Source: a bacterium
Lineage (GTDB): Bacteria > Elusimicrobiota > Elusimicrobia > Elusimicrobiales > UBA9959
DNA length: 64,000 bases
Assembly (NCBI GenBank): GCA_021811185.1
Contig: JAJZPL010000001.1
Span: forward strand, 124,001 to 188,000
Reading direction: 5' to 3'
A program made the translations under genes and the position numbers. Every line of letters begins with the position of its first letter. The first letter of the stretch is position 1. Shown piece after piece: positions 2,791 to 31,470 of this stretch. The notes under the pieces are model-generated. The model was given only the letters and a program-made list of their open reading frames with translations, ran no database searches and was not told the origin of the DNA.

Positions 2791-3201
2791 ATGAAAATGA
2801 ACCGCACCTTAGCCTATGGCTTGGCTTGCCTGCACTACCTGGGGCAGAACAACGGCGGCAGCTGGAACCAGGTGGCCGACATTTCGCGCTTCCAGGGTTT
2901 GCCCGCGCCTTATTGCAACAAGGTGCTGCAGGCTTTGGTGCACGCTGGCTACGTGGAGTCGCAGAAGGGGAAGGGCTACCGGCTGCGCAAGGACCTGGAC
3001 GATATCAGCGTGTGGGGCCTGATGGAGGCGTTCACTTTTAACGGCGCGCCCGAGTCCGAGCGGGAGGAGATCCCCGGAAGGCTTTATAAAAAACTGCGCG
3101 AAGAGGTAAACCACTGGCTGGTGGGCCTAAGCGTGCAGGACATCGTGGAGATGATGAAAGAGGAAGAGTCGCATAAAGCCGAAAGGCCGGCGGAGGAATA
3201 G
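2791..3201 (+). CDS. Rrf2 family transcriptional regulator
   Basis: A 136-residue protein beginning MKMNRTLAYGLACLHYL, the typical N-terminal helix of Rrf2 winged-helix regulators, followed by the helix-turn-helix (VADISRFQGLPAPYCNKVLQ) and the wing (GYVESQKGKGYRLRKDLDDI). Rrf2 members such as IscR and NsrR bind Fe-S clusters through three clustered cysteines after residue 90; none is present here (only two Cys, both in the N-terminal half), so it probably does not bind such a cluster. The start is set by homology, since upstream in-frame codons add a non-conserved extension and no strong ribosome-binding site is visible. It is the first gene of the giant-protein operon and may control the operon and itself. 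Confidence 0.85.
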   Translation: MKMNRTLAYGLACLHYLGQNNGGSWNQVADISRFQGLPAPYCNKVLQALVHAGYVESQKGKGYRLRKDLDDISVWGLMEAFTFNGAPESEREEIPGRLYKKLREEVNHWLVGLSVQDIVEMMKEEESHKAERPAEE

Positions 3202-3204
3202 TTG
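3192..3204 (+). promoter_or_regulatory. ribosome-binding site selecting a TTG start
   Basis: GGAGG (3192-3196) lies inside the end of the Rrf2 gene, 5 bases before TTG at 3202, which immediately follows the Rrf2 TAG. The alternative ATG at 3229 has only GGAG at 3208-3211, 17 bases away. Both starts keep the signal peptide intact. Confidence 0.6.
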
Positions 3205-6200
3205 GCCGGAGATATCGATTTTAAGATCATGAAACTCTGGAAGGCTGAAAAAACAGGAGCGGCAGCCCGCGGCGCAAGCCGGGGGACTTTCTCCTTTGCT
3301 CGGGCCGGGCGGCTGTTCTTGCTGCTGGGCTTATGCCTGCTCCCTTCCTCCCTGCGCGCGGAGACAGCCATAAGGACGGTGGAATATAACCTGGGCGGCA
3401 GGTACAGCACCACCGCCCAGACTTCCGGGGTGCAGTTCAATTTCCCGTCGCAGGTGGTAAAACTGCCCGAGAACTCAAAGGTGATCCGCAGCGCCTGGCT
3501 GGAATTCGAGGGCTTGGCCGTTTCCGCCGCCAACGTCAACCCGCTCGTCATCTATTTCGACGCCGCCGCCACTCCCAGCACCGCCCGTTTCACCTCCGGG
3601 TCCTATACCGTAAACTCCGGCGAGTCCGTTAAACTTTTCGCCAGGGCCGACGTAACTTCCGTGTTTACTGCCCAGCTTGCAAACCTGGCGGCCGGCGTCA
3701 CTTTCGCCGGCGGCGTAAAGATCACCGGGCCCACCAGCAACATGCACACCATGAAGCTGTACGTCACCTACGAGTACGACGACCAGTCGCCCACGCAGGT
3801 AAAGACCGTAAGGTTCCCGCTCTATTCCGACTATACCAACCAAATCGCCGCCTACACCGCGCAGCGCGCCGCCGGGACCAGCCCCTTGCAGTACTTGGCC
3901 GACCCCGCCGATACTACCGGGTTCGTCCTGAAGCAGCAGTGGTTCGAGATCCGCGGCTACCGGCAGACGGTGGGCACCACCGCGGGCAGCATCAACGTGA
4001 ACATCGGCGGCGGGACCAGCGAGCCCACGATGGGCATGGATAGTTCGCTAAGGGACTCCTACGACGTTAAATACCTGACCAATTCGGATATAGTGCCGGG
4101 CTTCTCCACAGGCACCGTGCAGACGGTGAACGTGGTGACCACCATAAACCCCATGAATACCCTGAGCGGCGAAGTGGTGCTCACCTACGAATTTTCCAAC
4201 GCCTCACCGGTGAAGACCAGGACCATAAGGCAGTTCCTGGGGCAGGGCCTGGCCGCCGGGGCCGCCAGCGCCGTTTCCACCGCCGGGCTCTTCCTGCGCG
4301 AGGAGGGGATCGCCCTGAAGCGGGTCTATGCCCAGGTTATGGGGACGTATAACAGCACTACGGCCGGCAACCTGACCATTGCCTCCAATATCGGCGCCAG
4401 CGCGGTAACCTCCAGGAGTTACGCCGAGGTCGCCACCTCGGTGCAGGTCTCCGGGTTCCAGTTCTTCCACGACATGAGCTCCGCCATGGACGGCTGGACC
4501 GACGGGGAAGTCGTTTCCTCCACTATCACGGTCCCGACCAGCGCCGGCGGCCCCGCTATAGAACTGATCGTGACTTACGATTACACCAACGGCGCGGCGC
4601 ATACCGGCGCCTACCAGGTGCTGGCCGGCCTGGACACCCTGGCCTCCGGCACCACCTACGCTTATCCCTTCACCTATTATCTCCCCGAACTGGACGGCGC
4701 CAGGACCATCCGCTCCGGCTATGTCACGGCCGACGCCATCCTGGGGGCGGCTACCGCCAACTTCACCACTTCCGTCAACTTCAACGGAAACGGGGCGCAG
4801 ACGGTTACCCACAGGACCGCAAGCGACGCGGCCACCGTTAACACGCTATACGGGAACACTTCGCAATTCTCCTCCGCCGTCACGGCCGGCAATGTCACGG
4901 TCAATTACGGCATAAGCTCCACCGGCGGTTCCCTGGGCGGGCAGGCCGGGGTGGTCTATACCTTCGTCCCGGTGCCGAAAATGCCGGACAGCCCGGCCCA
5001 GTACGCCAACGGCTCCGCGCTGGCGCAGGGGGCCTGGACCAACGCGCGCACCATAACTTTCGAGGGCGTGCTGGCCAGTTCCATGAACGCGGACAACCTG
5101 CACCTGGTCACCGAAGTAAAGCCGGCCGCTTCGGTTTTCGACGGGGTGGCTCTCTCCACCAGCCTGGTAAACGTTTATTCTGGCGCGCCGCTTACGGTAA
5201 GCCTTGACCAGACCGGCCTGACTTCCGGCACGCAGTACAAGTGGCAGCTCTCGGCCTTAGGCGACGGCGGGCGCACGGCCTGGAAGGCCTTCGGGGCCTC
5301 CGATCCGGATTTCGGCGTGGACTATTCCAGCCCTCCCGCCCCGGCCATGGCCGCCATCCTGCCGGTAAATAACGCCAACCTCAACAACGGCTCCCCGGCG
5401 CTGAGCTGGGAAGCGGTCGCCGACATCGACGGCTCGGGCCTGAAGAATTACGAGGTGCAGGTGGCGACCGCGGCCGACTTTACCACCGTTACTTTCAGCT
5501 CCGCCCCGCTGGCCGCGGCGGCTGCGCCTTCCGGTCTCGCTCAGAACCCGTATTTCTGGCGCGTGCGCGCGCTGGACAACGCCGGCAATACCGGGCTGTG
5601 GTCGGCCGCGCGCGCTTTCAGGGTGGACCTTTCCACACCTGTCATCACCGGCAGGATGGGGACCGGGGACCAGGTCTGGCGCAATACCAACAACGGGCTT
5701 TATAACGTGGACTTCGACGACGCGGGCGGTTCGCTCATCTCCAAGTTCCAGGTGCGCGCCACCTCCGGTACGGGTCAGACCGGCACGGATTTCAGCGGCG
5801 GCTGGGTGGACGCGGCGCTTAACGTGAACGCCACTTATTATTATGCCGATTGGGCCCTGCCCGCCGGGTTCTGGACCAGCCTCGCCAGCTGGACCACCAA
5901 CTATATCTCGGTGCGGGCCGTGGATTATTCCTCCAATACGGTCACCCTTTCGGACGCTTTTATAGTCCTTAAGGATACCGCGCCCCCCGGTTTTGCCAAC
6001 GGCGAAGCGGGCGGCGATCTGGCCTGGCGCAATACCGGCAGGAACTACAACGTGGATTTCGCCGATCCCTTTTCCAGGCTTGCCGGCGCGGCTTACGCGG
6101 CGCGGACCGCGCCCGGCGGGGCGGGGGCCATGCAGGTTTCCACCACCGCCATCCCCGGGGTGGGCGGCGCCTCGTATACCGCCGACTGGGCGGTGAACTT

Positions 6201-9200
6201 CGCCGGGCTCGCAGGCGACTCTACGAACTATATCTCGATCGAGCTTTACGATATAGCCGGGAATACCACCACCATCACCGACGCGTTCAAAGTGCTTAAA
6301 GACACCACGCCCCCGGCTTATGCCAACGGCGAGGCCGGAGGCGACCTGACCTGGCGCAATACCGGCAGGAATTACAATTTCGATTTTTCCGACGGCGCCT
6401 CCCGCCTGGCCGGGGCCAAGTACGCGGCGCGCGCCAATCCCGGCGGGAACCCGCCGGTACTGGTAGCCTCCACCACCATAGCCGGGGTGACCGGCGCCGC
6501 CTACACCGCGGATTGGCCCGTGGATTTCGCGAACCTGGGCGGCGACAATACCAACTATATCAGCGTGGAATTCTACGACGTGGCCGGCAATACCGTCAGC
6601 GTGGTGGACGCTTTCCGGGTGCTAAAAGACACTACGCCGCCCGCGGTGCCGGCGCCGCTCGCCCCTGCCGCCGGTTCTAAGACCAATTCGGCCTACCTGG
6701 CTTTCGACTGGGGAGACGCCGCGGATAACGCTTCCCGGACGGCTAATTATCTGCTGCAGTTGGCCACCTCCACCGATTTCGCCACGATCACCTACTCCAG
6801 CCAGCCCGCGATCTCCGCGGCCTATATCCCGCTGGCCGCGCAGAACACCTATTACTGGCGCGTGGCTTCCAGCGACACGGCCGGCAACCTGTCGGCGTTC
6901 AGCGCATATCGCTCCATCCTGGTGGACCTGTCCTCCCCGACGATAACGGACGGCCAGGCCGGCGACACGAAGTGGCGCAACGCCAATAACGGGCTTTACA
7001 ATGTGACCTTCGCGGACGCCGGCGGGTCTCTCCTGTCGTATTTCCAGATAAAGGTCACCTCCGGCCCCTCGCAGACCGGCACGCTGATCTCCGACTGGAC
7101 CACCGTCGCGGCCGGCATCAACGCCGCCGCCTACGCCTCGGCCTGGTCCCTGCCGACGGCGGTCTGGAACGCCATCGACAGCGGCACCACCGGCTACGTC
7201 AGCGTGCGCGTTTTCGATAACGTCGGTAATTCCTCCACTTCCGTCAACGACCTGTTCTACGTGCTTAAGGATACCGTGCCGGTCGTTATCACCGACGCGC
7301 AGGCCGGTGACGACGCCTGGCGCAACTCCGATCCGGGCGGTATATATAACGTCGCTTTCGCCGACGCCGGCGGCTCCAAGCTGGACAGCATCCAGTACAC
7401 GGCTTGGACCGGCCCCGGCCAGACCGGCGCGAAAAAAATAGATTGGACCTTCATCTCTTCGGGCCCGGCCAACCTTTCTTCCTACCCCGGCCCTTGGGGG
7501 ATCTCCGCTTCTTCCTGGCCGGCGCTGGCCGAAGGAATAAATTATATTTCCGTGCGCGCCTGGGACGTGGCCGGCGCCACCACCGCGCTGAACGACGTAT
7601 TCTACGTTAACAAAGACACTACCGCGCCTTACGCGCAGAACCTCCAGGCCGGCGGCGACGCCGCCTGGCAGAAAGACCCGGGCAAACTTTACGACGTGAA
7701 TTTCTTCGATAACGGCGGTTCGCTGCTTAATACCGTGGAGTATTCCGTGTGGTCGGCTCCCGGGCGCACCGGCACGCTGCGCAAGGACTGGAGCCCTATA
7801 GTGGGCGCGCCGCTGGGCGCGGCCTCGTATACTACCGACTGGCCCGTGGACTTCGCGGCGCTGGAGGAAGGCCAGGCGACCAACTACGTTTCCGTCCGCT
7901 TTACCGACCTGGCCGGCAACACCTCCACTTATGCCGACGCTTTCTATATCAGCAAAGATAAAACGCTGCCCGTCATAGTGGACAACCAGTTCGGCGACGA
8001 TAACTGGCGCAGCTCCTCCGGCACGGCCTACAACGTGGACTTTAACGACGCCGGCGGTTCGCTCGTTTCCAGCTTCGAACTGAAGATAACGACCGGGCCC
8101 GGCCAGACCGGCGCCGTGGTGCAGGACTGGGCCGTGCAGGCGGGGGGAATAAACCTGGCCTCCTATACCGCCGACTGGAAGCTTACCCAGGCGCAATGGG
8201 ACGCCCTGCCCCCCGGCATCTCCTACGTCTCGGCGCGCGTCAACGACAACGCCGCCAACCAGCAGGAGAAGGACGACGCCTTCTATATCCTCAAGGATAC
8301 TTCCGTCCCGTCCATTACGGATAACCAGGGCGGGGATTCCAGCTGGCGCGATTCCAATTCCGGGTCCTATAACGTGGATTTCGCCGACGACGGCGGTTCG
8401 CTGCTGGATAAGCTCCAGGTAAAGGTCACAACCGGGCCGGCCCAGACCGGCACGCTGGTAACGGATTGGACCGACGCCGTTACCGGTATTAACGCGGCCT
8501 CGTACGCGGCCGACTGGCAGCTGCCCGACCCGGTATGGGACCTGCTGCGTTCCGGCACCAATTACGTGTCCGTCCGCGTAATGGACTACGCCGGTTCCAC
8601 CGTCGCCCTTTCAGACGTGTTCTTCGTGCTCAAGGATACTTCCACCCCCGTCATTACGGATAACCAGGCCGGGGACGATACCTGGCGGCGTTTCGGCGGC
8701 ACCGTCTATAACCTGGATTTCAAGGACACCGATTCCGGCCTGGCTTCAGCCGGCTACGAAGTCTGGTCGGGCCCCAGCCGTACAGGTTCCAACACCATCC
8801 CGCTCACCGCTATCCCCGGCGCGACGGGCGCGGCCTATACCGCGGACTGGGCGGTGGACTTCAACCTGCTCGCCCAGGGCACGAATTACGTTACGGTGAC
8901 GGCGGTGGACAACCTCGGACATACCGCCACCCAGGAAGACGCCTTCTACGTGCTGAAAGATAACGTCTCCCCGTCGATAACCAATAACCAGGCCGGCGAC
9001 GATACCTGGCGCAAGGCCGATCCGGGCGCCGTCTATAACGTGGATTTCGGCGACCTGACCGCCGGCCTCACCACCGCGCAGTACCGCATAACTTCCCTGC
9101 CCGGGCAGGCCGGCGCGGTGATAAAAGACTGGACCAATATTTTTTCCGATGCGGCCGGCGTGCCTGCCTACACGGCGAACTGGGGGGTGGACTTCCCCGC

Positions 9201-12200
9201 CATCCCGAGCGGGACCACCGGTTACGTCAGCGTGCGCGCTTACGACAAGGCCGCCAATCCCGCGCAGGTGAACGACGCGTTCTACGTGCTGAAAGATACC
9301 GTCATCCCCAATATCGTCATCGTCAGCACTCCGACCAAAGGTTTCGGCCCTTATTCCGCCAACCCCGGCGCCATCTTCAACGTGGATTTCTTCGACAACG
9401 GCGGCTCAGGCATAAACGCGCCGCAATACTTCGTGTCTACGTTCCCCGCCGGAGCCGGCACGCCGGTTAAGGACTGGACCAATATAGCCACGCTGGCCGG
9501 GGCCACCTACTATGTCCAGAACTGGGATGCGGACTTCTACGCGCTCGAGACCCTGCCCGCCACCAACTATTTCTCGGTGCGCGCCACGGACCTGGCGGGC
9601 AACACTTCTACCTACCTGGACGCTTTTAAAGTCTTCAGGACCACCTTCCCGATAACCGTCACGGTTAACCAGGCCGGGGACGACGTCTGGCGCACCGCCA
9701 ACAACGGGGTCTACGACGTGGCTTTCTTCAGCAACGACCTGGGGGTCTACCTCAGTTCTTTCTCGGCGCAGGCCTGGACGCAGCCCGGCCGCACCGGGGC
9801 GATGACGGCGGACTGGACGAAGATGGCGGACGTGAACGCGCAGTCGTATACTGCGCCCTGGCCGCTGCCGCAGCCTTTCTTCGACTCGCTGTACGAAACC
9901 ACCAACTATATCTCCGTGCGCGCCTGGAACGTGGACGGGACCAGCATTACGCTGGAAGATGTGTTCTACGTTAAGAAAGACACCACGTCCCCGTCGATAA
10001 CGGATTCGCAGGGCGGCGACGATACCTGGCGTTCGGCGGCCGGCACGGTCTATAACGTGGACTTCGCCGACGCCGGCTCGCGCCTTACGCGCGCGCAGTA
10101 CAGGATCAGCACCGGGACGGCGCAGACAGGGCTGGTGTTAAAGGACTGGACCGACATCTTCAATACCCCGGCGGGGCAGGCCTCTTACACCACGAACTGG
10201 CCCGTGGATTTTGCCGCGCTCCAGAGCTGGACCAGCGGCTACGTGAGCGTGCGGGCCTACGACCAGGCCGGGTTGTCCTCCTCGCGCAACGACGTGTTCT
10301 ACGTGCGCAAGGATACCACGCCGCCGGTTTTCGCCAATAACCAGCCCGGCGCCTCCGCCTATCTTTCCGCCAATACCGGCCTGTACAACGTTGACTTTAC
10401 GGACCCGGGCCAGGAATCCGGCCTGCTTCGCTACCAGCTCAGGGCTTCCACGCATACCGGTAATTTCGCGCCGTACCTGCTCGACTGGACGGATTCCGGC
10501 AGCCTGGCGGGCCGCAGTTACACCGCCGATTGGCCGCTGCAGGCCGATATCTGGGATTCCATCCCCAGCGGCGTCACCGCCTATATCTCGGTGCGCGTGT
10601 TCGACGCGGCGCTCCTTTCCTCGGACCTCTACAACGCTTTCACGGTGTGGAAGGATACCGCGCAGCCCGAAGTGATAGTGAACCTGGCCGGCGACGATAC
10701 CTGGCGCCTTGCCGATCCGGGCGCCGCTTACGACGTGGATTTCCGCGACCTGGAATCCGGGGCGGCCTCGGCGCAGTACCGCCTCTATGCCGGGCCCGGC
10801 GGCACCGGGGCGCTGCTGAAGGACTGGACCTATATTTTTAATATCCCGGGCGGCACGAGGACTTACGCGGATAATTGGGGCGTGGACTTCGCCTCAGCCG
10901 TGGAAGGCGAAAACTATGTTTCGGTGCGCGCCTTCGACCGCGGCGGCCTTTCGGCTTCCGCGCAGGACGCCTTCTATATTCTCAAGGACACCACCCCGCC
11001 GGTCATAGTCGATAACCAGGCCGGGGATTACAGCTGGCAGGGTTCGCCCGGCGCCGTCTACGACGTGGATTTCTTCGACAGGGCTTCAGGCCTTGGCTCG
11101 CTGCAATACCGCGTCAGCACCGCGCCGGCCCTTGCCTACCCGATAAGTTCCTGGCTGACCGCGGACGTGCTGACCGGCTACCCTACCTATTACACGGACA
11201 ACTGGTCGGTGCAGTTCTCGACGCTGGCGGAGAACGCCACCAACTATATTTCCGTGCGCGCCTACGACCGCCTGAACCAGGTAACGGTCTCAAGCGACGT
11301 CTTCAAGATATTCAAGGACGTTACCCTGCCCTCCATAGCCGACAACCAGCCCGGCGACGACTCCTGGCATAATTCTTCCGGTACGCTTTACAATGTGGCC
11401 TTCGCCGACGACGGCGGCTCGCTGCTTTCCAGGTTCCAGGCGAAACTGGTCTCGGGGCCGGCCCAGCTGGGCGACGTGGTCGCCGACTGGACAGATATCG
11501 CCTCCGGGCTGAACGCCGCCTCTTACGCCTCCGCGTGGGCGCTGCCGGCTGGCCTGTGGCAGGCGCTGCCCGAGGGCCAGACCTACGTGTCCGCGCGGGT
11601 TTACGACAACGCCGGCAATGAGCGGGAAATTTCGGACGCGTTCTATGTGAGGAAGGATACCACTCCGCCCGTGATAACCGATTACCAGGGCGGGGACGGG
11701 ACCTGGCGCTCCGCCAACACCGCGGTATACGACGTGCGCTTCACCGACGCCGGCGGCTCGCTGCTGGATAACGTAAGGGTGAAACTTACCTCGCAGCCCG
11801 GCCAGGCGGGGACGCTTCTTTCCGACTGGACCGAGGTTTTTTCGGATATGAATTCCGCGGCTTACTCCGCTCCATGGGGCTTGCCGGCCGCGGCCTGGGA
11901 TTCCATACAGAGCGGCGCTACCGCCTATGTTTCTGTTGCCGTGTCCGACTATGCCGGTTCCACCACTACCCTCACCGACGCTTTCTACGTGCTGAAGGAC
12001 ACCGTGGTCCCTACCGCCGCCGACAACCAAAGCGGCGACGCGGCCTGGCGGAATTCCAACAGCGGGGTTTACAGCGTAAGCTTCGGCGACACGGGCGGTT
12101 CGCTGCTCTCGAAAGTGCAGGTTAAAGCTTCGTCCGGCCCCGCCGGCACCGGCATAGCCGCTTTCGGCTGGGCCGACAATATCACGGGCATCAACTCGCA

Positions 12201-15200
12201 GTCCTATGCCGGCCCGTGGCCGCTGGCGCCGGGCCTGTGGGACCTGCTGCTTCCGGGCACTAATTATATTTCCGCGCGCGTTTACGACAACGCCGGCGCC
12301 TCTGCCGACGTTGCCGACGCCTTCTACGTGCTGAAGGATACGCAGAACCCCGCGGGGACCGTTTCGCCTCCGGCTTATTCGGGCGCGCTGGGTTTCAGCG
12401 TTCCCTACGCGGCTTCGGACTCCGGCCCGGCCGGGGTCCAGTACGCCGAGCTTTATTACACCTATTCGACGCAGGTGCCCTACGCCTGGACCCGGTTCGG
12501 TTCTACCTTCGGTTCCAGCCCGGTAGCTTTCACGGCGCCGTCCGGCGGGACCGTCGGGTTCAGGCTGGTGGTTTACGACAGGGCCGGCAACAAGGACGAG
12601 ACCGACCCGCCCGGCAGCGACACCGCGCCCGAAGCCGTCACCTACGTGGACCTTGCCGCGCCGGCGGTGATCGACAACCAGCCGGGGGACAGCGCCTGGC
12701 GCAATTCGGCTGGCACCCTTTATAACGTGGACTTCAGCGCCGCCGGCGGCTCGCTGCTTTCCGCGGCGCAGTACAAGGTTACCTCGGCCGGCGCGCAGGG
12801 CGGCACCGTGCTTAAAGACTGGACCAATATCGCCGCCGGCATTAACGCCGCGGACTATTCGGCGGACTGGGGCGTGGATTTCGCGGCGCTCAAGTCCAGC
12901 TTCAACTACGTGAGCGTGCGCGTCTGGAACCTGGCCGGCACGACCACCACGGCTAACGACGTTTTCTACATAAAAAAAGATACGGAAACGCCGGTCTTCG
13001 TAAATAGCCAGGCCGGTGACGACAATTGGCGTTCCGCGGACCCCGGCGCTATCTATAACGTGGACTTCTACGATCCCTTCTCCCTGCTTTCAAAGGTCCA
13101 ATATTCCGCTTCTTCCGTCCAGGGCTCCGCTTCGGGCGGCCTCAAGGGCTGGACCGACATAGCGGCCGGCATCTCCGCCCCGTCGTACACCGCGGACTGG
13201 GGCGTCGACTTCGCCGCGCTCAACTCCGGGGCCACCGCCTATATCTCGGCGCGGGCCTACGACCTGGCGGGCAACGTGGCGGTAAGCACCGACGTGTTCT
13301 ACGTGCTTAAGGACACGGTGGCGCCTTCGCTGGTAAACAACCAGGCGGGGGACGCGGCCTGGCGCGCAACCAACACCGGGCTGTATAACGTGGATTTCGC
13401 GGACAGCGGCGGCTCCAAACTTTCGAGGGCGCAGTATAATGTCTGGTCTTCCACCGGCCTTTCCGGAACGGAACTGGTCCCCTGGACCGACATTTCCCCT
13501 TCGCCCTCCGGGCTGAACGCCTACGCGTCCGACTGGGCCATAAGCGCGGGCGCTTTCGCGCTGCTGCAGCCCGGTACCAATTACGTCTCGGTGCGCGTCG
13601 CGGATATGGCCGGCTCCACCACTACGCTGGCCGACGCTTTCTACGTGCGCAAGGACGCGGCCGGGCCTTCCATAATAAATAACCAGACCGGGGACAACGC
13701 CTGGCGTTCTTCCAACAGCGGCAGCTACGCCGTAGCCTTCGAGGACCTGCTTTCGGGGCTGGGCTCTTTCCAGGTTAAGGTTACCACCGGCCTTAACCAG
13801 AGCGGTACGGTACTGGCGGATTGGACCCAGGTCTCGGCCCTTTCCGGGCAGGCCTACGCGGCCGATTGGGCGCTGCCGTCCGCGGTGTTCAGCGCCATGC
13901 TCGAGGGGGCCAACTACGTGTCGGTCCGGGCGCTGGACGCAGTTTTCAACGCTTCCACCCTCTCCGACGCCTTTTACGTGAACAAGGATACCAGCGGGCC
14001 GGTGATCACCGATAACCAGGCCGGGGACGATACCTGGCGCGACGCCAATACCGGCTTATACGACGTGGACCTGGCCGACGACAAGTCCCTGGCGGCCAGG
14101 CTGCAGGTAAAAGCCATGACCGGCCCCGGCCAGACGGGTTCGCTGGTTTTCGACTGGACCGACGCCGTTACCGGGATAAACGCCGCGGTCTATACCGCCG
14201 ACTGGGCGCTGCCGCAGGCACAGTGGGACCTGCTGGCGGAGGGCACGGGCTACATCTCCGTCCGCGCCTACGACATGGGCGGTACGCCCACGGCGCTGAC
14301 CGACGCTTTCTACGTCCGCAAAGACACTACGCCCGCCGCCGCCGTAGGCGCCCTGGCGGGCGTTACGGCCTCCGAGGGCGCCATAGCGCTTTCCTGGACG
14401 GCCCCGGACGACGGCGGCGCGCCCGCCGCGGCCTACCTGGTGAAAGTTTCCTCATACGTGAATATTAACGACTCGAATTTCGACACGGCCGATACTTACG
14501 CCCAGGCCTGGGTGCCGGTGCAGCCCGGTTCTCCGGAAAGCTACGACCTTGCCGGGCTCGAGACCAATACCCTCTATTATGTCGCCGTTAAGTCCGTGGA
14601 CAGGGCCGGTAATATTTCAGCTATCTCGAACACCGCATCCGCCGTTTCCGGCCCCGACACCACGCCGCCGGGCGCGATAACGGACCTTTCCGCCCAGCCC
14701 GGCGGATTCGACGGGCAGGTGAGCCTCGCCTGGACGGCGGTGGGGGATAACGGCGTATCTGTCGGCACGGCCGCCGCCTACCAGGTACGCTACCGTACGG
14801 ACCAGGCCATAACCTCGGCCGGCTTGTGGGACAGCGCCGTGGTTTACTCCCAGGTCTGGGTGCCGCAGTATCCCGGGGTAGCGGAAGTCCAGGGCGTGGA
14901 CGGGCTTACCGCCGGCACCACGTATTATTGGGCGGTCAAGGCGGTGGACGAGGCTAATAACACCTCGCCTCTTTCCAACAGCCCGAACGCCTACGCCACT
15001 ACCGGGGGCGGCACCGGCGGGAACATCATGTTCGGGGCCGGCACCACCAACATCCCCTCCGTAAGGGTCTGGGCGCCTCCCAGCTTCGGCGTGACCAACA
15101 ACGGGTCCACTACGGGCGCGCTGGCCACTTCCGTCGTGCGGCACATTCTCGTGCGCGCTTCGCCGCTGCGCAACGAAAAAATGGCCGGGATCCTGTCCTC

Positions 15201-18200: not shown

Positions 18201-21200
18201 CGTTTTCTACGTCAAGAAGGACGCCTATGCGCCCGCTATCGTGGACAACCAGCCCGGCGACGACTCCTGGCGCGCCGTTCCCGGCGCCCTGTTCAACGTG
18301 GACTTCCAGGATACGGGAGCTTCGCTGCTTTCACGCTTCCAGCTTAAGATCGCCTCCGGCCCGAACCAGAGCGGGACCGTGCTGGCCGACTGGTTCGACC
18401 GGGCGGCAGCCATCAACGCCGCTTCGTATTCTTCCGACTTCGACCTGGGCATCTCCACCTGGCTGAACCTGCCGCAGGGCGTTTCCTACGTGTCGGCGCG
18501 GGTGTACGACAACGCCGGGAACGTCTCTTCGCTCAGCGACGTCTTCTACGTTAAGAAAGACACTACCCCGCCGACCATAACCGACAACCAGGCCGGGGAC
18601 GACGCGTGGCGCGCCTCCAACGCGGGGCTTTACGATATCGACTTCGCCGACGGCGGCGGTTCCAGACTTTCTTATTTCCAGGTTAAGGCGACCACCGGCC
18701 CGGCGCAGACCGGCGCCGTGGCCGCGGACTGGACCACCGTCCTGGCCGGGATCGGGGCGGATTCCTACGCCGCCGATTGGGCGCTGCCGCAGGCCGTGTT
18801 CGATTCGCTCGCCAGCGGGGTTAATTATATCTCCGTGCGGGCTTACGACAATGCCGGGCTGTCCGCTTCCCTCAACGACGTGTTCTACGTGAAAAAGTCC
18901 ACCGCCCCGCCCCGCGTGATAAACAACCAGGCCGGCGACAATACCTGGCGCTCCGCCCCCGGGACGCTTTACGACGTGGATTTCCAGGACGCCGGGACTT
19001 CCGGCCTGGATTCAGCGCAGTACAAGGTGACCACGGCCCCCGGCCAGGCAGGTACGCTGATAAAGGACTGGACCTATATAGCCTCCAATATCAATACGCC
19101 AGCCTATACCTCCGACTGGGCCGTGGCTTTCGCGGCGCTGGCCGAGAACGCCACCAACTACGTGTCGGTGCGCGTCTGGGACGTCAGCGGGGCCACCACC
19201 ACGGTGAACGACGTGTTTTACGTGAAGAAAGACGTTACCGCCCCCGCTATCTTGAATAACCAGGCCGGGGACGACGTCTGGCGCTCCTCGAACTCCGGCC
19301 TGTACAACGTCGACTTTACCGACGCCGGCGGCTCGGCGCTTTCCCGGTTCGAGATCAAGGTTACCACCGGGGCCAGCCAGACCGGGACCGTGGTCGCCGG
19401 CTGGTACGCGCCGGTCTCCGGCATAAATTCGGGCAGCTACGCGGCCGACTGGGCGCTGGCCGTTTCCACGTTCACCGCCCTGCCGGAAGGCATAGGGCGG
19501 GTGTCGGTGCGGGTTTACGACAACGCGGGCAACGTGTCCGAACTCGACGACGCTTTCTACGTGAAGAAAGACACTACGGCCCCGTCCGCCCCGGCGCCCT
19601 CGGCCCCCGCCGACCTGGCCCCGCTCGCTACGCTGGCCCCGCTTTTCGACTGGACCGATTCCTCCGACGGCTCCTCGGGCGTGGCAGGCTACGCGCTGGA
19701 GGTTTCCACTTCTTCCGGCTTTACCCCTCTCGCTTACTCGGCCTCTCCTGCCGTATCGCAGCAGGCCGGCGCCCTGGCCGCCAGCACCACGTATTACTGG
19801 CGCGTAAAGGCCAGGGATAATGCCGGGAATTATTCCGGCTACAGCTCCGCGTTCAGGGTAGTAGCGGACACCGTGGCGCCCGTCATCGCCGACAATCAGC
19901 CCGGCGAGTCCTTCTGGCGCAACGCCGACGCCGGCGCCGTCTACAATGTGCAGTTCACCGACAATCTTACCGGACTGGACTCTATGGAGTATTCGGCCTG
20001 GAGCGGGCCCGGCCAGACCGGGGTTAATTCCGCGCCGTGGACGCTGATCTCCTCCGGCACGCCCCGCCTCTCTTACACCGCGCCCTGGGGCGTCGACTTC
20101 GCCCTGCTCGGCGCCGGCACCAACTACATCTCCGCCAGGGCCTGGGACGTGGCCGGGTCCACCGCGGTACGCGCGGACGTGTTCACCGTCCTAAAGGATA
20201 CCTTCGGCCCGGACGTGATCGATAACCAGGCCGGCGACGCGGCCTGGCGCGCGGCCAATCCCGGCGCCGTCTACGACGTGGACTTCAGGGACCTTTACTC
20301 CGGCGTGGCTACCATCCAGTACCGGATCAATTCGCTCCCCGCGCAGGCCGGCCTGGTCCTCGTGGACTGGTCCGACGTGGCGTCCGGGCTTAGCACCCCG
20401 CTCTACAGCGCCAATTGGGGGATCTCGGCGGCCGGCTGGAACCTGCTGGCCCAGGGGACGAATTACGTGACCGTGCGGGCTTATGACCGGCTGGGCCAGC
20501 TCTCTACGCTGGCCGACGCGTTCTACATCAAGAAAGACACCACGGCGCCCACCGTGGCAGACAACCAGCCGAACATCCCGCTGGCCGCCGGCCAGGCCGA
20601 CCTGGACGCCGTGAACGTGGATTTCTACGACACCGGCGGCTCGCTGCTTTCCAAGGCCCAGTATACCGCCTGGACCGGCGCCGGCCGCACCGGCGGGGAA
20701 ATTATCCCCTGGACGGATATAGCCGCCGGCATAAACGCCGCTTCCTACACCGCGGATTGGCCCGTTAACTACCTGGCCCTGCCGAACCTGGCCACCTCGT
20801 ATATCTCGGTGCGCGCCTACGACCTGGCCGGCAATACCACCTACTACAACGACGCCGTGGCCGTTTACAAGGAGGGCTCGGGCCCGTCCATCATAAACAA
20901 CCAGCCCGGCGATACGGCCTGGCGCAACGTCAATGACGGGGTTTACAACGTGGACTTCCAGTCGGAGTCCGGCTACAGCCTGGATTACTTCCAGGTCACG
21001 GCCGCCACCTCCGCCGCCGCGCCTACTTACCTTGTGGCCTGGACCAGCGCCGCCTGGAACATCGGCTCCACCGGCTATTACGCCGATTGGGCTCTGCCGC
21101 AGGCTGTCTTCGACGCGCTGGCGCCGGGGAAGAACTACATTTCGGTGAAGGTCTACGACCTGCAGCCCAGTTTCTCCGCGCTGAACAACGCCTTCTACGT

Positions 21201-24072: not shown

Positions 24073-27000
24073 CCGCTGCCGGCCGGGCTGTGGAATTTGC
24101 TGGGCGAGGGCACCAGTTATATTTCGGTGCAGGTCTGGGACGCGGCGGGAAGCTCCACGACGCTGCTCTACCAGCCCTTCTATATCCTGAAAGACACTAC
24201 GGCGCCGGTTTTCGTCAACGGCGAAGCCGGCGGCGACCCGGCCTGGCTCGGCTCCGGCCGGAATTACAACCTGGACTTCGGCGACCAGATGAGCGGCCTG
24301 GCCGCGGCCCAGTACAGCGTCAGCACCACTGCCCTCTCGGCCGACGGCCAGGTAAAGGTCTGGACGGCGGTCCCCGTAGCTTACGGGGCGCCCGCTTACA
24401 CCGCCGACTGGCCGCTGGATTTCGCCGCGCTCGAAGAAGGCGTTACCAACTACGTGTCGGTGCGCGCCTGGGACCTGGCCGGCTCCACCGCCGTGCTTAC
24501 CGACGCCTTCTACGTCAAGAAGGACACCACCCCGCCCACGGCCGCGGACAACCAGGCCGGAGAATTCTCCTGGAGGAATTCCAACGGCGGCAGTTATAAC
24601 GTGGACTTCGCGGACGCCGGCGGTTCTGGCCTGGCCCGCTTCCAGCTGAGAGCCAGCACCGGCCCCGGCGGCACCGGCGTCACCGCCGTGGACTGGACCG
24701 ACAATATAGCCGGGATAAACTCCAATTCCTATGCGGTGGACTGGCCGCTTTCCGCCGGCATCTGGAACGGCCTTTACGACAGCGCCACCAATTATATCTC
24801 GGTGCGGGTGTTCGACAATGCCGGGGGTTCGTTCACCATAAACGACGCTTTCAACGTGCTGAAAGACACCACGGCGCCTTCCATCGCCGACAACCAGGCA
24901 GGGGACGACGCCTGGCGGAACGCCGCGGGCACGCTCTATAACGTGGATTTCGCCGACGGGGGCTCGCTGATCTCCAGCGCCGCTTACGCGGCTTGGACGG
25001 GGCCGGGGCAGACAGGGACCCAGGCCAAAGCCTGGACGCAGATCCCTTCCGTTTCCGGGGCTTCGTATGCCGCGGATTGGGGCGTGGATTTCAGCGGTCT
25101 GGCGCAGGGCTTCAACTACGTGTCGGTGCGAGCCTGGGACAATGCCGGGAACCTGCGCGAGCTTGGCGACGTTTTCTACGTAAAGAAAGATACCGCGCCC
25201 CCGGTCATAAACGACCTGCAGGCCGGCGATACCACCTGGTACAGGGCGAACCCCGGGCCCGTTTTCAACGTGGATTTCACCGACGCCAGCATAGGCGTTT
25301 CCACCGCCGCTTACGAGGCCTGGACCGAGCCGCTCCACACCGGAGTCAATGTGGTGGTGTCTACGAATATCTTCGCCGGGCCGCCGGTGTCCGCGTATAC
25401 CCAAAACTGGGGGATTTCCGACGCGGACTGGCTGCTGCTGGCGCCGGGCACCAACTATATAACCGTTACGGCCTGGGACGGCCTGGGGCTGTCGGCGGCG
25501 GCCACGGACGTTTTCTATATCCTTAAAGATACCGTGCCGCCTTCCGCCATAACCACCCTGGGCGCTTCGCCCGCCGCCGGGCAGTTGGGAGAGGGGGATA
25601 TTAACGCGAAGTGGAACGCGCCGGGCGATAACGGGCTGACCGGCAGCGCCAGTTACTACCTGCTGCGCTATAAAACTTCGGCTTTCACGGACCAGGCCGA
25701 CTTCGACGCCGCTTCCGTGTATGTGTCCACCCTGGCGCCGAAGGCCGCCGGCGGGCTGGAAGGCATGACGCTCACCGGCCTTAACGCCGGCGTTACCTAC
25801 TACCTGGCCGTGGAGGCAGTGGACAAGGCCGGCAACGCGGGCGCGCTCAGCAACCTTGCTTCCGGCTACGCCGGAGTGGACCTTACGCCCCCCGGCGCCA
25901 TAACGGACCTTTCAGCCGCCATGGCGGACTTCCAGGGGCAGATCGCCCTTGCCTGGACCGCCCCTGGGGAGGGCGTGAAGGGCGTGACCAATGCCGGGAC
26001 GGCGGCCGCTTACATAGTTCGCTACGCCACCTTCGCCATTACCGCGGCCAATTTCAGCGCGCCTAACGTGTCCACCTTCACCCAGACCACCTGGTTCCCG
26101 CTGGCTTACGGCCAGGCCGAAAGCCACATCGTGGACGGCCTGACCCCCGGCGCGACTTATTCCATCGCCATCAAAGCCGTGGACGAGGCTGGTAACATCG
26201 GCGCTATCTCCAACGTCCCGGTCTCCAGCGCCACGCCGGCGGGCTCGGCCGCCGGGATGATAGTTTACGGCGAGGGAACCTCCAATATTCCCAAGTACCG
26301 CAACTGGACGCCCGAGATCTGGGGCGCCCAGGCCGACGCCCTCGCCACCGCCGCCACGGTCCGCTGGGCCGCGCTGAAAGCGGTGCCCGTGGTGGCCAAC
26401 GCCAAGGTGGCCGGTTTCCTGGCCTCCGACAACAGCCTGAAGTTCCTGAACTGGGACGGGGCCGCTTCGAACTGGAGCGATATTACCATGACGCCGGCCC
26501 CCGCCCCGGCGGGCTCGGCCACGCGCAAGTTCGACCTGGCCCCGGAGAACCTGACCGGCAGGATGCTGGCGGTTTATTATAACGGCACCGCGGGGGCCGT
26601 GACCTACGCGGTCTGGTCGGCCACCGCCTCCGCGTGGTCCGTGGCGCCCGCCTCGCTGCCGCTCGCCTCGCTTACCGGGGCGATCAACTGGGTGCGCCTG
26701 AAATCCATGCCGGGTACGAACCGCATCCTGCTTATGGCGCTCGACGCCAACTCCCGTATTTCCGCCGCCGTCTGGAACGGCTCGGCCTGGGTCTCCAACC
26801 AGAACCTGACCACCACCGCTTCTATCGCCACCAGGGAGTGTTTCGACGGGGACTGGGAGTCCCAGACCGGCAACGGCATGGCGCTGTGGGGCACCGGTAC
26901 TACCACCAGCTTCAGCGTCTGGCGCGCCACTTCTGCCGCCTGGGAGACGGTCAAGACCGGTCCCGCTACAGGCGCTACCGTGGTCAACTGGCTGCGCGTA

Positions 27001-28212
27001 GCGGCGGACCCGGCCACTAACCGCCTCGGCGCGAGCATCATTACCGTGACGCCGTCCTGGTACGTCTCGGTCTGGCGCGCCGCGCTGGCCACCGAGGCCT
27101 GGTCCGTATCCCCCACGGCGGACACCTCCATGTCGTCCAACGCGGGGCGCATTACCGACGCGGCCTGGGAGGCGCAGTCCGGCAAGTTCATGGCCGCCGC
27201 CGTGGACAACCTTGGCACCAACGACAACCAGTTCGACTATATAACGTGGCTGAACGGCGCCTGGACCCCGGCCAGCCCCTCCGTGACGACGGCCAACACC
27301 AACACCACTTTCGCCACCGACATCCGGCAGCTGGCGCTGGTGCCGGACCCGAACACGAACAAGATCACCGCGCTCGGCATGGACACCTCCGGTAACCTTA
27401 AGACCACGCTGTGGGGCGGCACGTCCTGGGCCGGCACTACGGCTTCCTCCAACTTCCTGCACGACAGCGCCGTTTCCGACTTCAACTACGAACCCGCTGC
27501 GCTGGCCTTCGACCGGCAGGATCCCGTGCCGCCCACGGTGGTGGACAACCAGGCGGGCGACGACAATTGGCGCAACTCGCGGGTCAATTACAACATAGAC
27601 GCCACGGATTCGGGCGGTTCGCACCTGGCCTCTATCCAGACCAAGATCTTCTCCCAGGCGGGCGGCGGCGGCACGCTGATCCAGGACTGGACCGACCAGG
27701 TGACCGGCATCAACGCGGACGCCTATACGGCCGACTGGCCTCTCACGCAGGCCACCTTCGACCTGCTGCCCCAGGGCCAGAGTTACGTGGGCGTAAGGGC
27801 GCGCGATAACGCGGGCAACTACGCTTCCTATATCCTGGACGCTTTTTATGTGAAGAAAGATACCATCGCGCCCACGGTCGGCAATAACCTGCCCGCGGAT
27901 TACGACCCTTCCTGGCACAATGCCGACCAGGGCCCCGTTTACGACGTGGACTTCGCCGACACCGGCGGGTCGCAGCTCCGCAGCCTGGAGTATTCCGCCT
28001 CCAGCGGGCCCGCCCGCACCGGCACGCTGACTCCGGACTGGACGGTCATCTCTTCCGGCACCCTTGGCTCGATCTACAGCGCCAACTGGGCGCTCAACTT
28101 CGCGCTGCTGGGCAACGGCACCAACTACATAAGCGTGCGCGCCATCGACAACGCCCTGAGCACTACCACGCTGGTGGACGCGTTCAGGATACTTAAGGAC
28201 ACCCAGCCGCCC
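5635..28212 (+). repeat. array of about 50 Ig-like domain repeats in the giant gene
   Basis: The repeat unit is about 320-345 bases. By hand I count 44 units before the TAG at 24070 and six after it. Conserved positions are the DNQAGD start, the Trp-Arg six to eight residues later, YNVDF, the ADW Trp, SVR and the closing KDT-PP. FN3-like single domains are inserted at about 6640, 16620, 17600, 19590 and 21545. DNA identity between units is high at the motifs (for example ATAACCAGGCCGGGGACGA recurs), so assembly collapse or expansion is a risk here. Confidence 0.9.
24070..24072 (+). other. in-frame TAG at a conserved Trp codon of the giant gene
   Basis: The local reading is YTAD-stop-PLPAGLWN, where sister repeats read YTADW or similar. 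TGG to TAG is one base. The frame stays open for 2,465 more codons with the same repeats. TAG is the normal stop of several other genes here (Rrf2, rapZ, EIIB, metF, PorV-like), so code reassignment is unlikely. A nonsense mutation, a sequencing error or read-through remain possible. Confidence 0.9.
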
Positions 28213-31200
28213 TCGGCTATAACGGGCCTGGCCGCCGCCCCCGGGCCGGTGAGGGGCTCCGTCAACCTTTCCTGGACCGCTCCCGGCGACGACGGCGCCG
28301 CGGGCGACAATACCGCCGGCTATTACCTGGTAAGGTCGGCCACGTTCCAGATAACCACCGACGCGCTGTTCAACGCGGCCAGCGCCTATGCCCAGGCCTG
28401 GGCGCCCGCGGCCGCCGGGCAGCCGGAGGCCCGCGCCGTTTACGGGCTGGACGCCGGCAAAACGTATTACTTCGCCGTCAAGACGGCCGACAAGGCCGCC
28501 AATATCTCGGCGCTTTCCAACCAGGCCTCCGCCATGCCGCAGACGGCCAACCTGTACGTTAACGAAGTTTACGCGGCCGGGGCCGCCGCCGCCGACGACT
28601 GGGTGGAGCTTTATAATAATACCGCGTCCACCATAACGCTGACCGGCTGGAAGCTGGTTTACGACCAGGGGTCGATAGACCTGCCCGGGCCGGAGACCAC
28701 GGTCTGGACCGGGACCAGCGTCGATACGGTCAACGTCAACGGCTTCTTTACCTTCGCCCCGTCGCTGAACCTGAACGGCGCGCAGAGTTACCACGTCATC
28801 CTTAAGGACGCGGGCGGCAACGTGGTGGACCGCGTGCAGTGGCCGGCGCTTACCGCCGGCAGGTCCTTCGCCAGGATCACCGACGGCAACGCCGACTATT
28901 TCGACGCCGATCCTACTCCGACCAGGAATTACGCCAATGCCGTGTCCACCGACCCGCTCAAGATAAACGAGGTTTCTTACGGCGCGCCGGCCTCCCAGTT
29001 CATAGAACTTTACAACGCCGGGCCCGCCACCGCCACGCTTTCCGGCTACTTCCTGCGGAGTTCCTATAACGGCAGGTTCCAGTTCACCCGGAAGATCTAC
29101 GCTTATTCTTACGCGCTGATCGACCAGTCCGCCGTCAGCGGCGAGGCGCTGCCTTACGCTTCCGTGTTCGGGGCCTCCGGGCTGGCGGCCGCGGGGGACT
29201 TCGCGGTGCTGGAGAACTCCGCCGGGCAGACCCTGGACAGGGTCGTCTGGCAGTCCGGCGCGGCCTATTCGCTGCGCAACTACAAAGCCGCGCTCGTCAG
29301 CGCCGCCGACTGGGCCCCGGCCAACGCCGCCGCTTCCATAGGCCGGCGTCCCGCCGAGGGCGCGGACACCGGCGCCGATTCCGCCGACTTCGCCGCCCAG
29401 GCCGCCGCTACGCCCGCTTCGCGCAATAACGGCGCCGGCGCGGCCGCGGTCAACACGCTCGCTTATCCCGCGGCGGCCCAGATCCTGCCGTTCAGGTTCC
29501 CGCTGCGCCTCGCGCTGGGGGCCGTCTCTTCCGCCGGCACGGGCAACAATATCGTCCTGTCCCGCACCGGCGGCGCCGCCGACCCGTATTCCCCGCACCT
29601 GTACCGGCTGGAGGATATAGGCTTCTCGCTCTCCAGCCTGGCCGCGCAGGGCACCTCGCAGGCCGGCCTCTCGTTCCCGGACGAGGACGGCTACCCGCTG
29701 GTGAACGGCGCGGTCTATACGCTTACCTTGAACAGCGACACCGGTTCCGCCTCCGCGCCGCAGCTGACCCGCGCCGGCCTTGTTTACGACGCTTCCGTGC
29801 ACGCCGTCAACGCCGCCTCCGCCGCGCCGGCGCGGCTTGGGGAAGGCGCGCGGGCCGCCGCGGTACGCATAGCGGTTTATAACAACAGCCCCGCCGGCTA
29901 CAATGCCGTGGAGATAGCGAGCTTCACCGTGCGCCTGCTGGACCAGAGCCTGGCGCCGCTGGATACCGCGAAGGCCAGGAACCTGTTCCAGAGCGTTTCG
30001 CTCGTGCAGGACTCGGCCGCCGGCCTTTCCGGGGTGTACGAGTCCGGGCTGGACCTTGCCGTGGCGACCAGCACGCTTAATGCCGACCTCGTGCTCGGGG
30101 CCGGCGGCGCGCTTTCGTTCAGCGTGCCGTCCGTGCCCGCGGCCAGGACGCCCGCGGCCTCTACCGCGGCTTATTACGTGGTTTTCGAAGCGGCCCAGTA
30201 CGCTTCCACGCAGACGCCCAACGCTTTCAGCGTGAACTTTGACCCGGCGGCGGACCTTGTGCTGCGCGACGCGCCCAGCCTGGAGCCGCAGGCTTTCACG
30301 CCCGGTTCCGCCGTGCAGACCTCTTCCACCGTGATCATGGTGCCTGCCGCGCCGCCTCCCGGCACCTTCTGGCCGTACGCGCCGTCCACGCAGTCTGGCG
30401 TAGTTTCCATGGTGGACTATTACAACGGCGTTATCGTCAGTTCTTCCGTCTACATTTCATCTCTGGACGGGGTGCTGCGCGCGGTCAGGGTTGACGGCCA
30501 GGGCAAGTGGGAGTTCCAGACCTTCCCCGTCTCCCCGGTGAGGACCGCGCCGCTGTTCCGGGAGGAGTCCGGCGGAGTCTACCTTTACTTCGCCGACGAT
30601 TACGGCGACGTCTACAAGATAAGGGATAACGAGGCTTCGGCGCAGCAGATCTGGAAGAGGCAGCTGGGCGCGAAGGTGGTCTCCAACCCCGTGGATTCGG
30701 GCGATAAACTGTACTTCGGCGCGGATAACGCCCGGGCTTACTGTCTTAACAAAGCCGACGGGTCCGATTGTACCGGCTGGACTTACGACGCGGGCTTTAC
30801 GGCCGCCGTCTCCGGCACGATCTCCCTGGATGACCGCACTCCCGGCGTCAACGCCTCCTGGATAGGGCTTGAGGACGGCAAAGTGGTGCGTTTCAAGACG
30901 GCTGACGGGACCATAACGAGCGCCTTCCAGACCGGCGGGCCTATAAAGACCTCTCCCTACGCGGATGCCGCGTACCTGGGCGGGAATAACGTTTACGTTA
31001 CCTCTACCGACGGCAAGATCTACGCCAGGACTTCCGCCAACCTGACCACCACGCCCTCCAACTGGCAGGACTTTAATTCCGGCGCTCCCATCTACACCTC
31101 GCCTTTCAAGGACCAGCAGGACGGCAAGAGCGTGTATTTCGGCAACGACTCCGGCCGGCTTTATAAAGTGGACGCTTCCAGCGGCGAACTCGTAATGAGT

Positions 31201-31470
31201 TTCCAGGCCGGAGGCCCGATTCGGTCCTCGCCCGTGATGGTGCCGGCGGATTACTCCGGGCTGGGGGCCGGGGAAGATTACGTCTATTTCGGCTGCGACG
31301 ACGGGTATGTTTACGCGGTCAACACCCATACCGGGCAGTTGCGCGACGGCTGGCCCGTGCCCACCGGCGGGCCGGTCCGCGCCGACCCGAACGTGGACCT
31401 TGAAAACCTCACCCTTATCGTGGGGTCCGGAGACGGCAAGACATACATGTTCTATATAGGGCCGCCTTGA
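24097..31470 (+). CDS. giant secreted repeat protein, C-terminal part after the internal stop
   Basis: This is the same frame as the preceding part. The first possible start is TTG at 24097, with no ribosome-binding site and no signal peptide, so I read it as the tail of one broken gene. Contents in order: the end of repeat 44, four more repeats, two FN3 domains (about 25540-26230), a second beta-propeller-like block (about 26240-27530), two repeats, an FN3 domain (about 28215-28545), two lamin-tail-like domains (VNEVYAAGAAAADDWVELYN and INEVSYGAPASQFIELYN, bases about 28555-29300), a beta-rich linker, and a PQQ-type propeller (about 30360-31470) with repeated GVVSMVDYYNG, GKVVRFKTADG and GYVYAVNTHTG motifs. 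There is no sorting domain at the end. Lamin-tail domains occur in bacterial surface proteins and nucleases; no nuclease motif is seen. Confidence 0.8.
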   Translation: MLGEGTSYISVQVWDAAGSSTTLLYQPFYILKDTTAPVFVNGEAGGDPAWLGSGRNYNLDFGDQMSGLAAAQYSVSTTALSADGQVKVWTAVPVAYGAPAYTADWPLDFAALEEGVTNYVSVRAWDLAGSTAVLTDAFYVKKDTTPPTAADNQAGEFSWRNSNGGSYNVDFADAGGSGLARFQLRASTGPGGTGVTAVDWTDNIAGINSNSYAVDWPLSAGIWNGLYDSATNYISVRVFDNAGGSFTINDAFNVLKDTTAPSIADNQAGDDAWRNAAGTLYNVDFADGGSLISSAAYAAWTGPGQTGTQAKAWTQIPSVSGASYAADWGVDFSGLAQGFNYVSVRAWDNAGNLRELGDVFYVKKDTAPPVINDLQAGDTTWYRANPGPVFNVDFTDASIGVSTAAYEAWTEPLHTGVNVVVSTNIFAGPPVSAYTQNWGISDADWLLLAPGTNYITVTAWDGLGLSAAATDVFYILKDTVPPSAITTLGASPAAGQLGEGDINAKWNAPGDNGLTGSASYYLLRYKTSAFTDQADFDAASVYVSTLAPKAAGGLEGMTLTGLNAGVTYYLAVEAVDKAGNAGALSNLASGYAGVDLTPPGAITDLSAAMADFQGQIALAWTAPGEGVKGVTNAGTAAAYIVRYATFAITAANFSAPNVSTFTQTTWFPLAYGQAESHIVDGLTPGATYSIAIKAVDEAGNIGAISNVPVSSATPAGSAAGMIVYGEGTSNIPKYRNWTPEIWGAQADALATAATVRWAALKAVPVVANAKVAGFLASDNSLKFLNWDGAASNWSDITMTPAPAPAGSATRKFDLAPENLTGRMLAVYYNGTAGAVTYAVWSATASAWSVAPASLPLASLTGAINWVRLKSMPGTNRILLMALDANSRISAAVWNGSAWVSNQNLTTTASIATRECFDGDWESQTGNGMALWGTGTTTSFSVWRATSAAWETVKTGPATGATVVNWLRVAADPATNRLGASIITVTPSWYVSVWRAALATEAWSVSPTADTSMSSNAGRITDAAWEAQSGKFMAAAVDNLGTNDNQFDYITWLNGAWTPASPSVTTANTNTTFATDIRQLALVPDPNTNKITALGMDTSGNLKTTLWGGTSWAGTTASSNFLHDSAVSDFNYEPAALAFDRQDPVPPTVVDNQAGDDNWRNSRVNYNIDATDSGGSHLASIQTKIFSQAGGGGTLIQDWTDQVTGINADAYTADWPLTQATFDLLPQGQSYVGVRARDNAGNYASYILDAFYVKKDTIAPTVGNNLPADYDPSWHNADQGPVYDVDFADTGGSQLRSLEYSASSGPARTGTLTPDWTVISSGTLGSIYSANWALNFALLGNGTNYISVRAIDNALSTTTLVDAFRILKDTQPPSAITGLAAAPGPVRGSVNLSWTAPGDDGAAGDNTAGYYLVRSATFQITTDALFNAASAYAQAWAPAAAGQPEARAVYGLDAGKTYYFAVKTADKAANISALSNQASAMPQTANLYVNEVYAAGAAAADDWVELYNNTASTITLTGWKLVYDQGSIDLPGPETTVWTGTSVDTVNVNGFFTFAPSLNLNGAQSYHVILKDAGGNVVDRVQWPALTAGRSFARITDGNADYFDADPTPTRNYANAVSTDPLKINEVSYGAPASQFIELYNAGPATATLSGYFLRSSYNGRFQFTRKIYAYSYALIDQSAVSGEALPYASVFGASGLAAAGDFAVLENSAGQTLDRVVWQSGAAYSLRNYKAALVSAADWAPANAAASIGRRPAEGADTGADSADFAAQAAATPASRNNGAGAAAVNTLAYPAAAQILPFRFPLRLALGAVSSAGTGNNIVLSRTGGAADPYSPHLYRLEDIGFSLSSLAAQGTSQAGLSFPDEDGYPLVNGAVYTLTLNSDTGSASAPQLTRAGLVYDASVHAVNAASAAPARLGEGARAAAVRIAVYNNSPAGYNAVEIASFTVRLLDQSLAPLDTAKARNLFQSVSLVQDSAAGLSGVYESGLDLAVATSTLNADLVLGAGGALSFSVPSVPAARTPAASTAAYYVVFEAAQYASTQTPNAFSVNFDPAADLVLRDAPSLEPQAFTPGSAVQTSSTVIMVPAAPPPGTFWPYAPSTQSGVVSMVDYYNGVIVSSSVYISSLDGVLRAVRVDGQGKWEFQTFPVSPVRTAPLFREESGGVYLYFADDYGDVYKIRDNEASAQQIWKRQLGAKVVSNPVDSGDKLYFGADNARAYCLNKADGSDCTGWTYDAGFTAAVSGTISLDDRTPGVNASWIGLEDGKVVRFKTADGTITSAFQTGGPIKTSPYADAAYLGGNNVYVTSTDGKIYARTSANLTTTPSNWQDFNSGAPIYTSPFKDQQDGKSVYFGNDSGRLYKVDASSGELVMSFQAGGPIRSSPVMVPADYSGLGAGEDYVYFGCDDGYVYAVNTHTGQLRDGWPVPTGGPVRADPNVDLENLTLIVGSGDGKTYMFYIGPP

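Follow-up and report, generated by a model that had tools for sequence, protein, structure and literature searches.

A conserved megadalton protein with fifty Ig-like repeats in Elusimicrobiota and its linkage to genes of type IX secretion type

Does a 28-kb coding region in the genome of an uncultured Elusimicrobiota bacterium encode a single protein, and how might a product of that size reach the outside of the cell? The window analyzed here is a 64,000-nucleotide stretch of contig JAJZPL010000001.1 (positions 124,001 to 188,000, forward strand; assembly GCA_021811185.1, hereafter G000). Its giant gene had been described in an earlier note, made from the letters alone, as one secreted gene of about 9,400 codons with roughly 50 Ig-like repeats and a product near 1 MDa. 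We found that the region is one gene of 9,413 codons, read through one TAG, with exactly 50 full repeats. The computed product (TAG read through) is 989 kDa, with an isoelectric point of 4.3, and is nearly cysteine-free. It represents a real, conserved and uncharacterized family of megadalton proteins. We consider it somewhat probable that this protein is a fixed-length surface fiber or adhesin, exported or held by a route similar to the type IX secretion system (T9SS) with the help of its operon partners. The gene and its domains are laid out as follows, with repeats called by a profile built from the giant's own repeats (self-profile).

3229–31470, +: giant gene, 9,413 codons read through one TAG
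3229–3360, +: signal peptide, predicted from sequence, with probable cleavage after SLRA
3361–5331, +: N-terminal beta-rich domain(s), marker of the giant family (no convincing Pfam match)
5374–5619, +: Ig/FN3-like domain, Rha78A-type (PF25788, 44.4 bits, cut-off 27.4)
5623–6624, +: Ig-like repeats 1–3 (self-profile)
6922–12333, +: Ig-like repeats 4–19 (self-profile)
12646–14319, +: Ig-like repeats 20–24 (self-profile)
14320–14943, +: two FN3 domains (PF00041, 43.8 bits, two stretches)
14944–16260, +: propeller-like module 1 (no Pfam match; likeness to module 2 by eye only)
16261–16605, +: Ig-like repeat 25 (self-profile)
16903–17586, +: Ig-like repeats 26–27 (self-profile)
17881–19566, +: Ig-like repeats 28–32 (self-profile)
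19864–21534, +: Ig-like repeats 33–37 (self-profile)
21832–25524, +: Ig-like repeats 38–48 (self-profile)
24070–24072, +: in-frame TAG at the Trp position of the YTADW motif of repeat 44
25525–26196, +: FN3 domains (PF00041, best stretch 25939–26196)
26119–27516, +: propeller-like module 2 (first ~75 bases are the FN3 end; otherwise no Pfam match)
27517–28194, +: Ig-like repeats 49–50 (self-profile)
28537–29253, +: two lamin-tail domains (PF00932, 56.2 and 47.6 bits, cut-off 34.3)
29269–30351, +: stretch without any family match (profile search)
30352–31467, +: C-terminal PQQ-type beta propeller with no sorting tail after it (PF13360, 58.1 bits, cut-off 27.6)

The outer frame (+1, 3202–31470) lies where the earlier note had placed it, but it is interrupted: the TAG, which went unmentioned there, cuts the frame into 6,956 and 2,465 codons. 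In the related Elusimicrobiota metagenome-assembled genomes G018 (JAQTOU010000004.1), G017 (JAJZOZ010000002.1) and G061/G152 (WOVA01000005.1), this codon is TGG (Trp), and the giants have no internal stop (9,430, 9,565 and 9,181 amino acids, respectively). Compared with G018, dN is 0.168 and dS 0.99 before the TAG, and 0.152 and 0.92 after it, with dN/dS about 0.17 in both parts. Judged by these ratios, the gene is under purifying selection, alike on both sides. No other break occurs in the 28 kb. Because the relatives have TGG and unbroken frames, and because constraint is equal on both sides, the TAG does not mark a gene boundary, and two genes split at this position are ruled out. The sequence comparison thus identifies the giant as one gene, as had been proposed from its two parts, and the TAG as either a recent nonsense mutation or an assembly error.

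If the mutation is real, the gene could be broken in this strain and yield only the 6,956-codon product, as a recent pseudogene or a shortened fiber from which the C-terminal propeller would be missing. The genes for Rrf2, PorV and RapZ terminate at TAG, making it an ordinary stop here. However, one miscalled base in a draft sequence would account for the TAG equally well, and the undiminished constraint after it, with no further break, means that any loss would be very recent. The relatives are also intact, except for the draft G019, in which TAG takes the place of a conserved Glu codon. Overall, we regard a broken gene as unlikely, although a real candidate. Since two drafts, G000 and G019, have an in-frame TAG in this gene, read-through or reassignment of TAG in this organism was also considered. 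The residues replaced differ between them, Trp in G000 and Glu in G019, and other genes end normally with TAG; stop reassignment was rejected on these grounds, and recoding in either form is extremely improbable.

The starts of the relatives align with ATG 3229, and for this reason TTG 3202 is likely not the start, in spite of the good ribosome-binding sequence that precedes it; ATG 3229 is probably the best start. The signal peptide agrees with the earlier description of the product as secreted. It has no conserved lipobox, and the N terminus is hydrophobic in the relatives too.

The self-profile search returned 51 stretches in the giant, of which 50 are full repeats of 108–116 amino acids, typically ~113. 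No curated model spans the array; only scattered repeats match Big_3_3 or OmpL47-type models, and the family is as hard to name as had been stated. Big_3_3 (PF13750, gathering score 27 bits) is exceeded in two of the four gene pieces, at 30.3 and 44.5 bits, each time by one qualifying stretch that straddles two adjacent repeats. Among the added modules listed in the earlier note, the FN3 (PF00041), two lamin-tail (PF00932) and PQQ propeller (PF13360) domains all exceed Pfam cut-offs, whereas the N-terminal and propeller-like modules are without a convincing Pfam match.

AlphaFold2 modeled three consecutive repeats as a row of beta sandwiches with a mean predicted local distance difference test (pLDDT) of 93.6, and the Ig fold of the repeats is a confident prediction. 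When this three-repeat model was compared with the PDB by Foldseek, the best match was 6xi3, a large adhesin extender, and SiiE (2yn5) ranked third with an E value of 2.6e-7; the fold matches were mostly extracellular proteins. VIA-align of a repeat gave many FN3/Ig chains with tied Z scores of 8–9.5 (SiiE 8.3), a result that reflects a common fold and points to no family. The N-terminal domain model reached a pLDDT of only 58, and its Foldseek matches were not readable.

The number and order of the repeats are conserved. The window, G018 and G017 each have 50 repeats with identical interruptions, and reciprocal best repeat matches fall at the same index without exception (49/49 for G018, 48/48 for G017). 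Orthologous repeats have a mean identity of 0.77 in G018 and 0.74 in G017, versus 0.44 across the repeats of one gene. For other genera of the same family, G061 has 48 repeats and G145 has 49–50 depending on the score limit, and collinear reciprocal best matches number 25/27 and 26/33, against shuffle maxima of 11 and 14, respectively. Outside the family, conservation of repeat order drops to chance level or close to it, and the counts are 49 (G171), 58 (G326 and G327), 41 (G241), 37 (G242) and 6 (G329). As the layout is common to four separately assembled genomes, an assembly artifact is ruled out and the array that the earlier note described is real.

With 50 repeats conserved one-to-one, selection on fiber length becomes an askable question. 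The count could instead be kept only because the repeats are too unlike to recombine, and we give this explanation slightly less than an even chance. The average identity of only 44% within one gene fits it, as do the drop of collinearity to chance beyond the family and the span of counts there, from 6 to 58. On the other hand, the count holds at 48–50 within the family down to ~60% identity, and two adjacent repeats are 68% alike, such that recombination is possible in principle.

The N-terminal domain is strong in 25 of 341 Elusimicrobiota genomes, covering 18 genera across classes, with two additional weak, partial matches. In G033:C40 (L020:4942-7139), from another genus, this domain is interrupted after ~220 amino acids, and the repeats follow only after ~1.5 kb of unrelated sequence, which looks like an insertion or a misassembly. 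A genome of the same genus without this N-terminal domain, G005, contains a further long array of the giant's Ig-like repeat (G005:C54, L043), with 19 repeats in a 3,485-amino-acid open frame ending at contig ends and 39 matches genome-wide. A phage origin was considered and rejected. Residues 6–221 of the N terminus do match one uncultured phage of 735 kb, represented by two records (LR756501.1, 100734–101393, E 9e-6), but at 28% identity this match is too weak to use, and a scan of viral contigs with the repeat profile gave no match.

The genes that flank the giant bear on how its product might leave the cell:

2791–3201, +: Rrf2-family regulator (TIGR00738, 66.2 bits, below the cut-off of 73.3; synteny)
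31517–34693, +: partner of 1,058 amino acids with signal peptide, PQQ propeller, FN3 and type A T9SS sorting tail
34730–36262, +: PorV-family outer-membrane shuttle (NF033709, 169.7 bits, cut-off 90)

Across classes, the giant is followed by the sorting-tail partner in 13/13 loci and then by PorV in 12/13, counting the loci readable that far downstream; G241 has no PorV at its giant locus. BLAST or profile matches identified PorV in most loci; in G017, G061 and G033 it was recognized by place and N-terminal sequence. In G061, the giant and the partner are separated by a small transposase-like gene. The partner in the window scores 107 bits with PF13360, and its tail, at about 34436–34672, scores 25.0 with TIGR04183 (cut-off 23) and 30.0 with PF18962 (cut-off 27). 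Its PorV-family neighbor reaches a PorP/SprF score of 21.4, below the cut-off of 90.55. An Rrf2-type regulator also lies upstream of the giant in G017, G018, G061, G145, G171, G143 and G169, and none was found there in G326, G327, G241, G242 or G329. The C-terminal propeller of the giant is related to the partner propeller in 11 of 12 partners (E < 1e-14). Taken together with the lack of a tail on the giant itself, the related propellers suggest that the partner supplies its sorting signal or anchor.

In the literature that we found, the T9SS is described as a Bacteroidota system, and our search yielded no report of it in Elusimicrobia/Elusimicrobiota. A SprA-like gene, with a product of ~1,800 amino acids, is present in all 61 relatives searched. 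It matches TIGR04189 in up to three collinear stretches, with the copy in G000 scoring 121.5 bits over three, and its kinship to SprA rests on this NCBIfam profile; a phmmer comparison of the protein with PDB sequences gave no match. G000 has 22 PorV-family matches and 13 sorting-tail matches. In a profile-based count over four genomes (G000, G018, G171 and G327), which replaced an earlier motif search that was too strict, 49 of 74 sorting-tail genes are followed within 600 bp by a PorV gene in the same orientation, with 0.2 expected. By this count, sorting-tail genes, as scored with the type A model, seem to come with PorV-type neighbors of their own. The same four genomes have 20–35 PorV loci each, versus 3 in the smaller genome G038 from the same order. 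A T9SS is only partly demonstrated in Elusimicrobiota.

Several results weigh against T9SS-like export of a surface fiber. None of the 12 giant sequences has a sorting tail according to a profile built from 12 partner tails, which does detect the tail in 4 control proteins, and a profile search of the last 2,465 amino acids of the giant found no tail family. Under the known rule, direct export by the T9SS is therefore unsupported, and the defining test, a tail of its own, does not establish the giant as a T9SS substrate. All SprA-like scores, across the 61 genomes, are below the curated cut-off of 200 bits. Nothing above the cut-off was found for the PorU sortase in five genomes, where profile matches cover only the C-terminal ~60–230 profile positions. 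The GldM profile gave no match, but it gave none in control genomes either. Lastly, the N-terminal domain is patchy in the giant's own genus (5/32 genomes), and the giant is therefore dispensable in many lineages.

We nevertheless prefer the surface fiber or adhesin. The giant would be an acidic, extended envelope protein of ~0.99 MDa, a rod of 50 distinct Ig-like domains completed by FN3 spacers, two propeller-like modules, lamin-tail domains and the C-terminal PQQ propeller. At ~4 nm per domain, we estimate an extended length of roughly 250 nm. Sec would carry it into the periplasm, and a divergent T9SS-like machinery, made up of the SprA-like translocon and the dedicated PorV-type shuttle two genes downstream, would then take it across the outer membrane or hold it there. 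Its likely adaptor or anchor is the tail-bearing PQQ/FN3 partner, and the two proteins might meet through their propellers.

The giant may instead be a structural sheath or tether that remains within the periplasm or beneath the outer membrane, with only the partner, which bears the C-terminal tail, reaching the surface. Its signal peptide would bring it at least to the periplasm, and the contrast between 12/12 tailless giants and a tailed partner is as expected. However, a rod of this length is too long to span an ordinary periplasm, although it could lie along it; shorter proteins of relatives with the same Ig-like repeat do end in a T9SS tail; and the folds matched are mostly extracellular. 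We regard a periplasmic location as improbable. The surface fiber that the earlier note had called plausible but unproven is still a candidate, now with added support from the tail-bearing partner, from PorV and from these shorter proteins. A further step, a two-partner T9SS outside Bacteroidota in which a signal-less megadalton fiber uses an operon-encoded tail-bearing protein and a PorV-type shuttle, is a tentative proposal that is less probable than the fiber itself. If export does occur via the tail of the partner, this would alter the rule that each T9SS substrate has its own signal.

The closest known parallels are large adhesins. Like SiiE, the giant Ig-domain adhesin of Salmonella, the giant has a long tandem Ig-like array of similar number, and SiiE chains 2yn5 and 2yn3 are among the best Foldseek matches of its repeat model. 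Identity is only ~15%, however, and the giant has added FN3, lamin-tail and PQQ modules and linked genes of T9SS type. SiiE uses a type I system for export; no type I secretion genes were among the profiled neighbors of the giant, although no search was aimed at them. The 6xi3 extender likewise consists of tandem repeats, which make up the extending part of a large adhesion protein. As far as is known, repeats of this extender kind are near-identical copies, whereas those of the giant are all distinct and are kept one-to-one between species.

The arrangement also resembles SprB/SprF of Flavobacterium johnsoniae, with a giant protein and a shuttle gene downstream. In that organism, type B substrates need a PorP/SprF-like shuttle encoded directly downstream, and type A tails share PorV (PMC12618676). 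SprB bears its own type B tail, whereas the giant has none: here the adjacent downstream protein bears the tail, and the shuttle is of PorV type. One survey lists Elusimicrobiota among the bacterial phyla richest in proteins of >5,000 amino acids and left their huge proteins without a functional group (PMC11573180). One such family is now defined by its fixed domain order and repeat structure, its conserved operon and its wide range in the phylum, and is linked to SprA-like, PorV and sorting-tail genes outside Bacteroidota.

Other giants in these genomes do carry tails. G000 encodes a second, larger one (G000:C25; L077-L079, concatenated 4521-41930). Its open frame of 12,469 codons contains Ig domains of Big_13/Big_3 type and finishes in a sorting-tail-like sequence, which the profile of partner tails also detects; a PorV gene follows this tail ~0.4 kb downstream. 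Tail-bearing frames in relatives reach 14,446 codons (G018:C35) and 17,295 codons (G171:C12). Finally, prepilin-like genes with N-terminal methylation motifs lie upstream of the giant locus in three genomes of the same genus (L004:15493-18027, and also in G017 and G018), and one of them encodes 844–855 amino acids with a very long C-terminal part.

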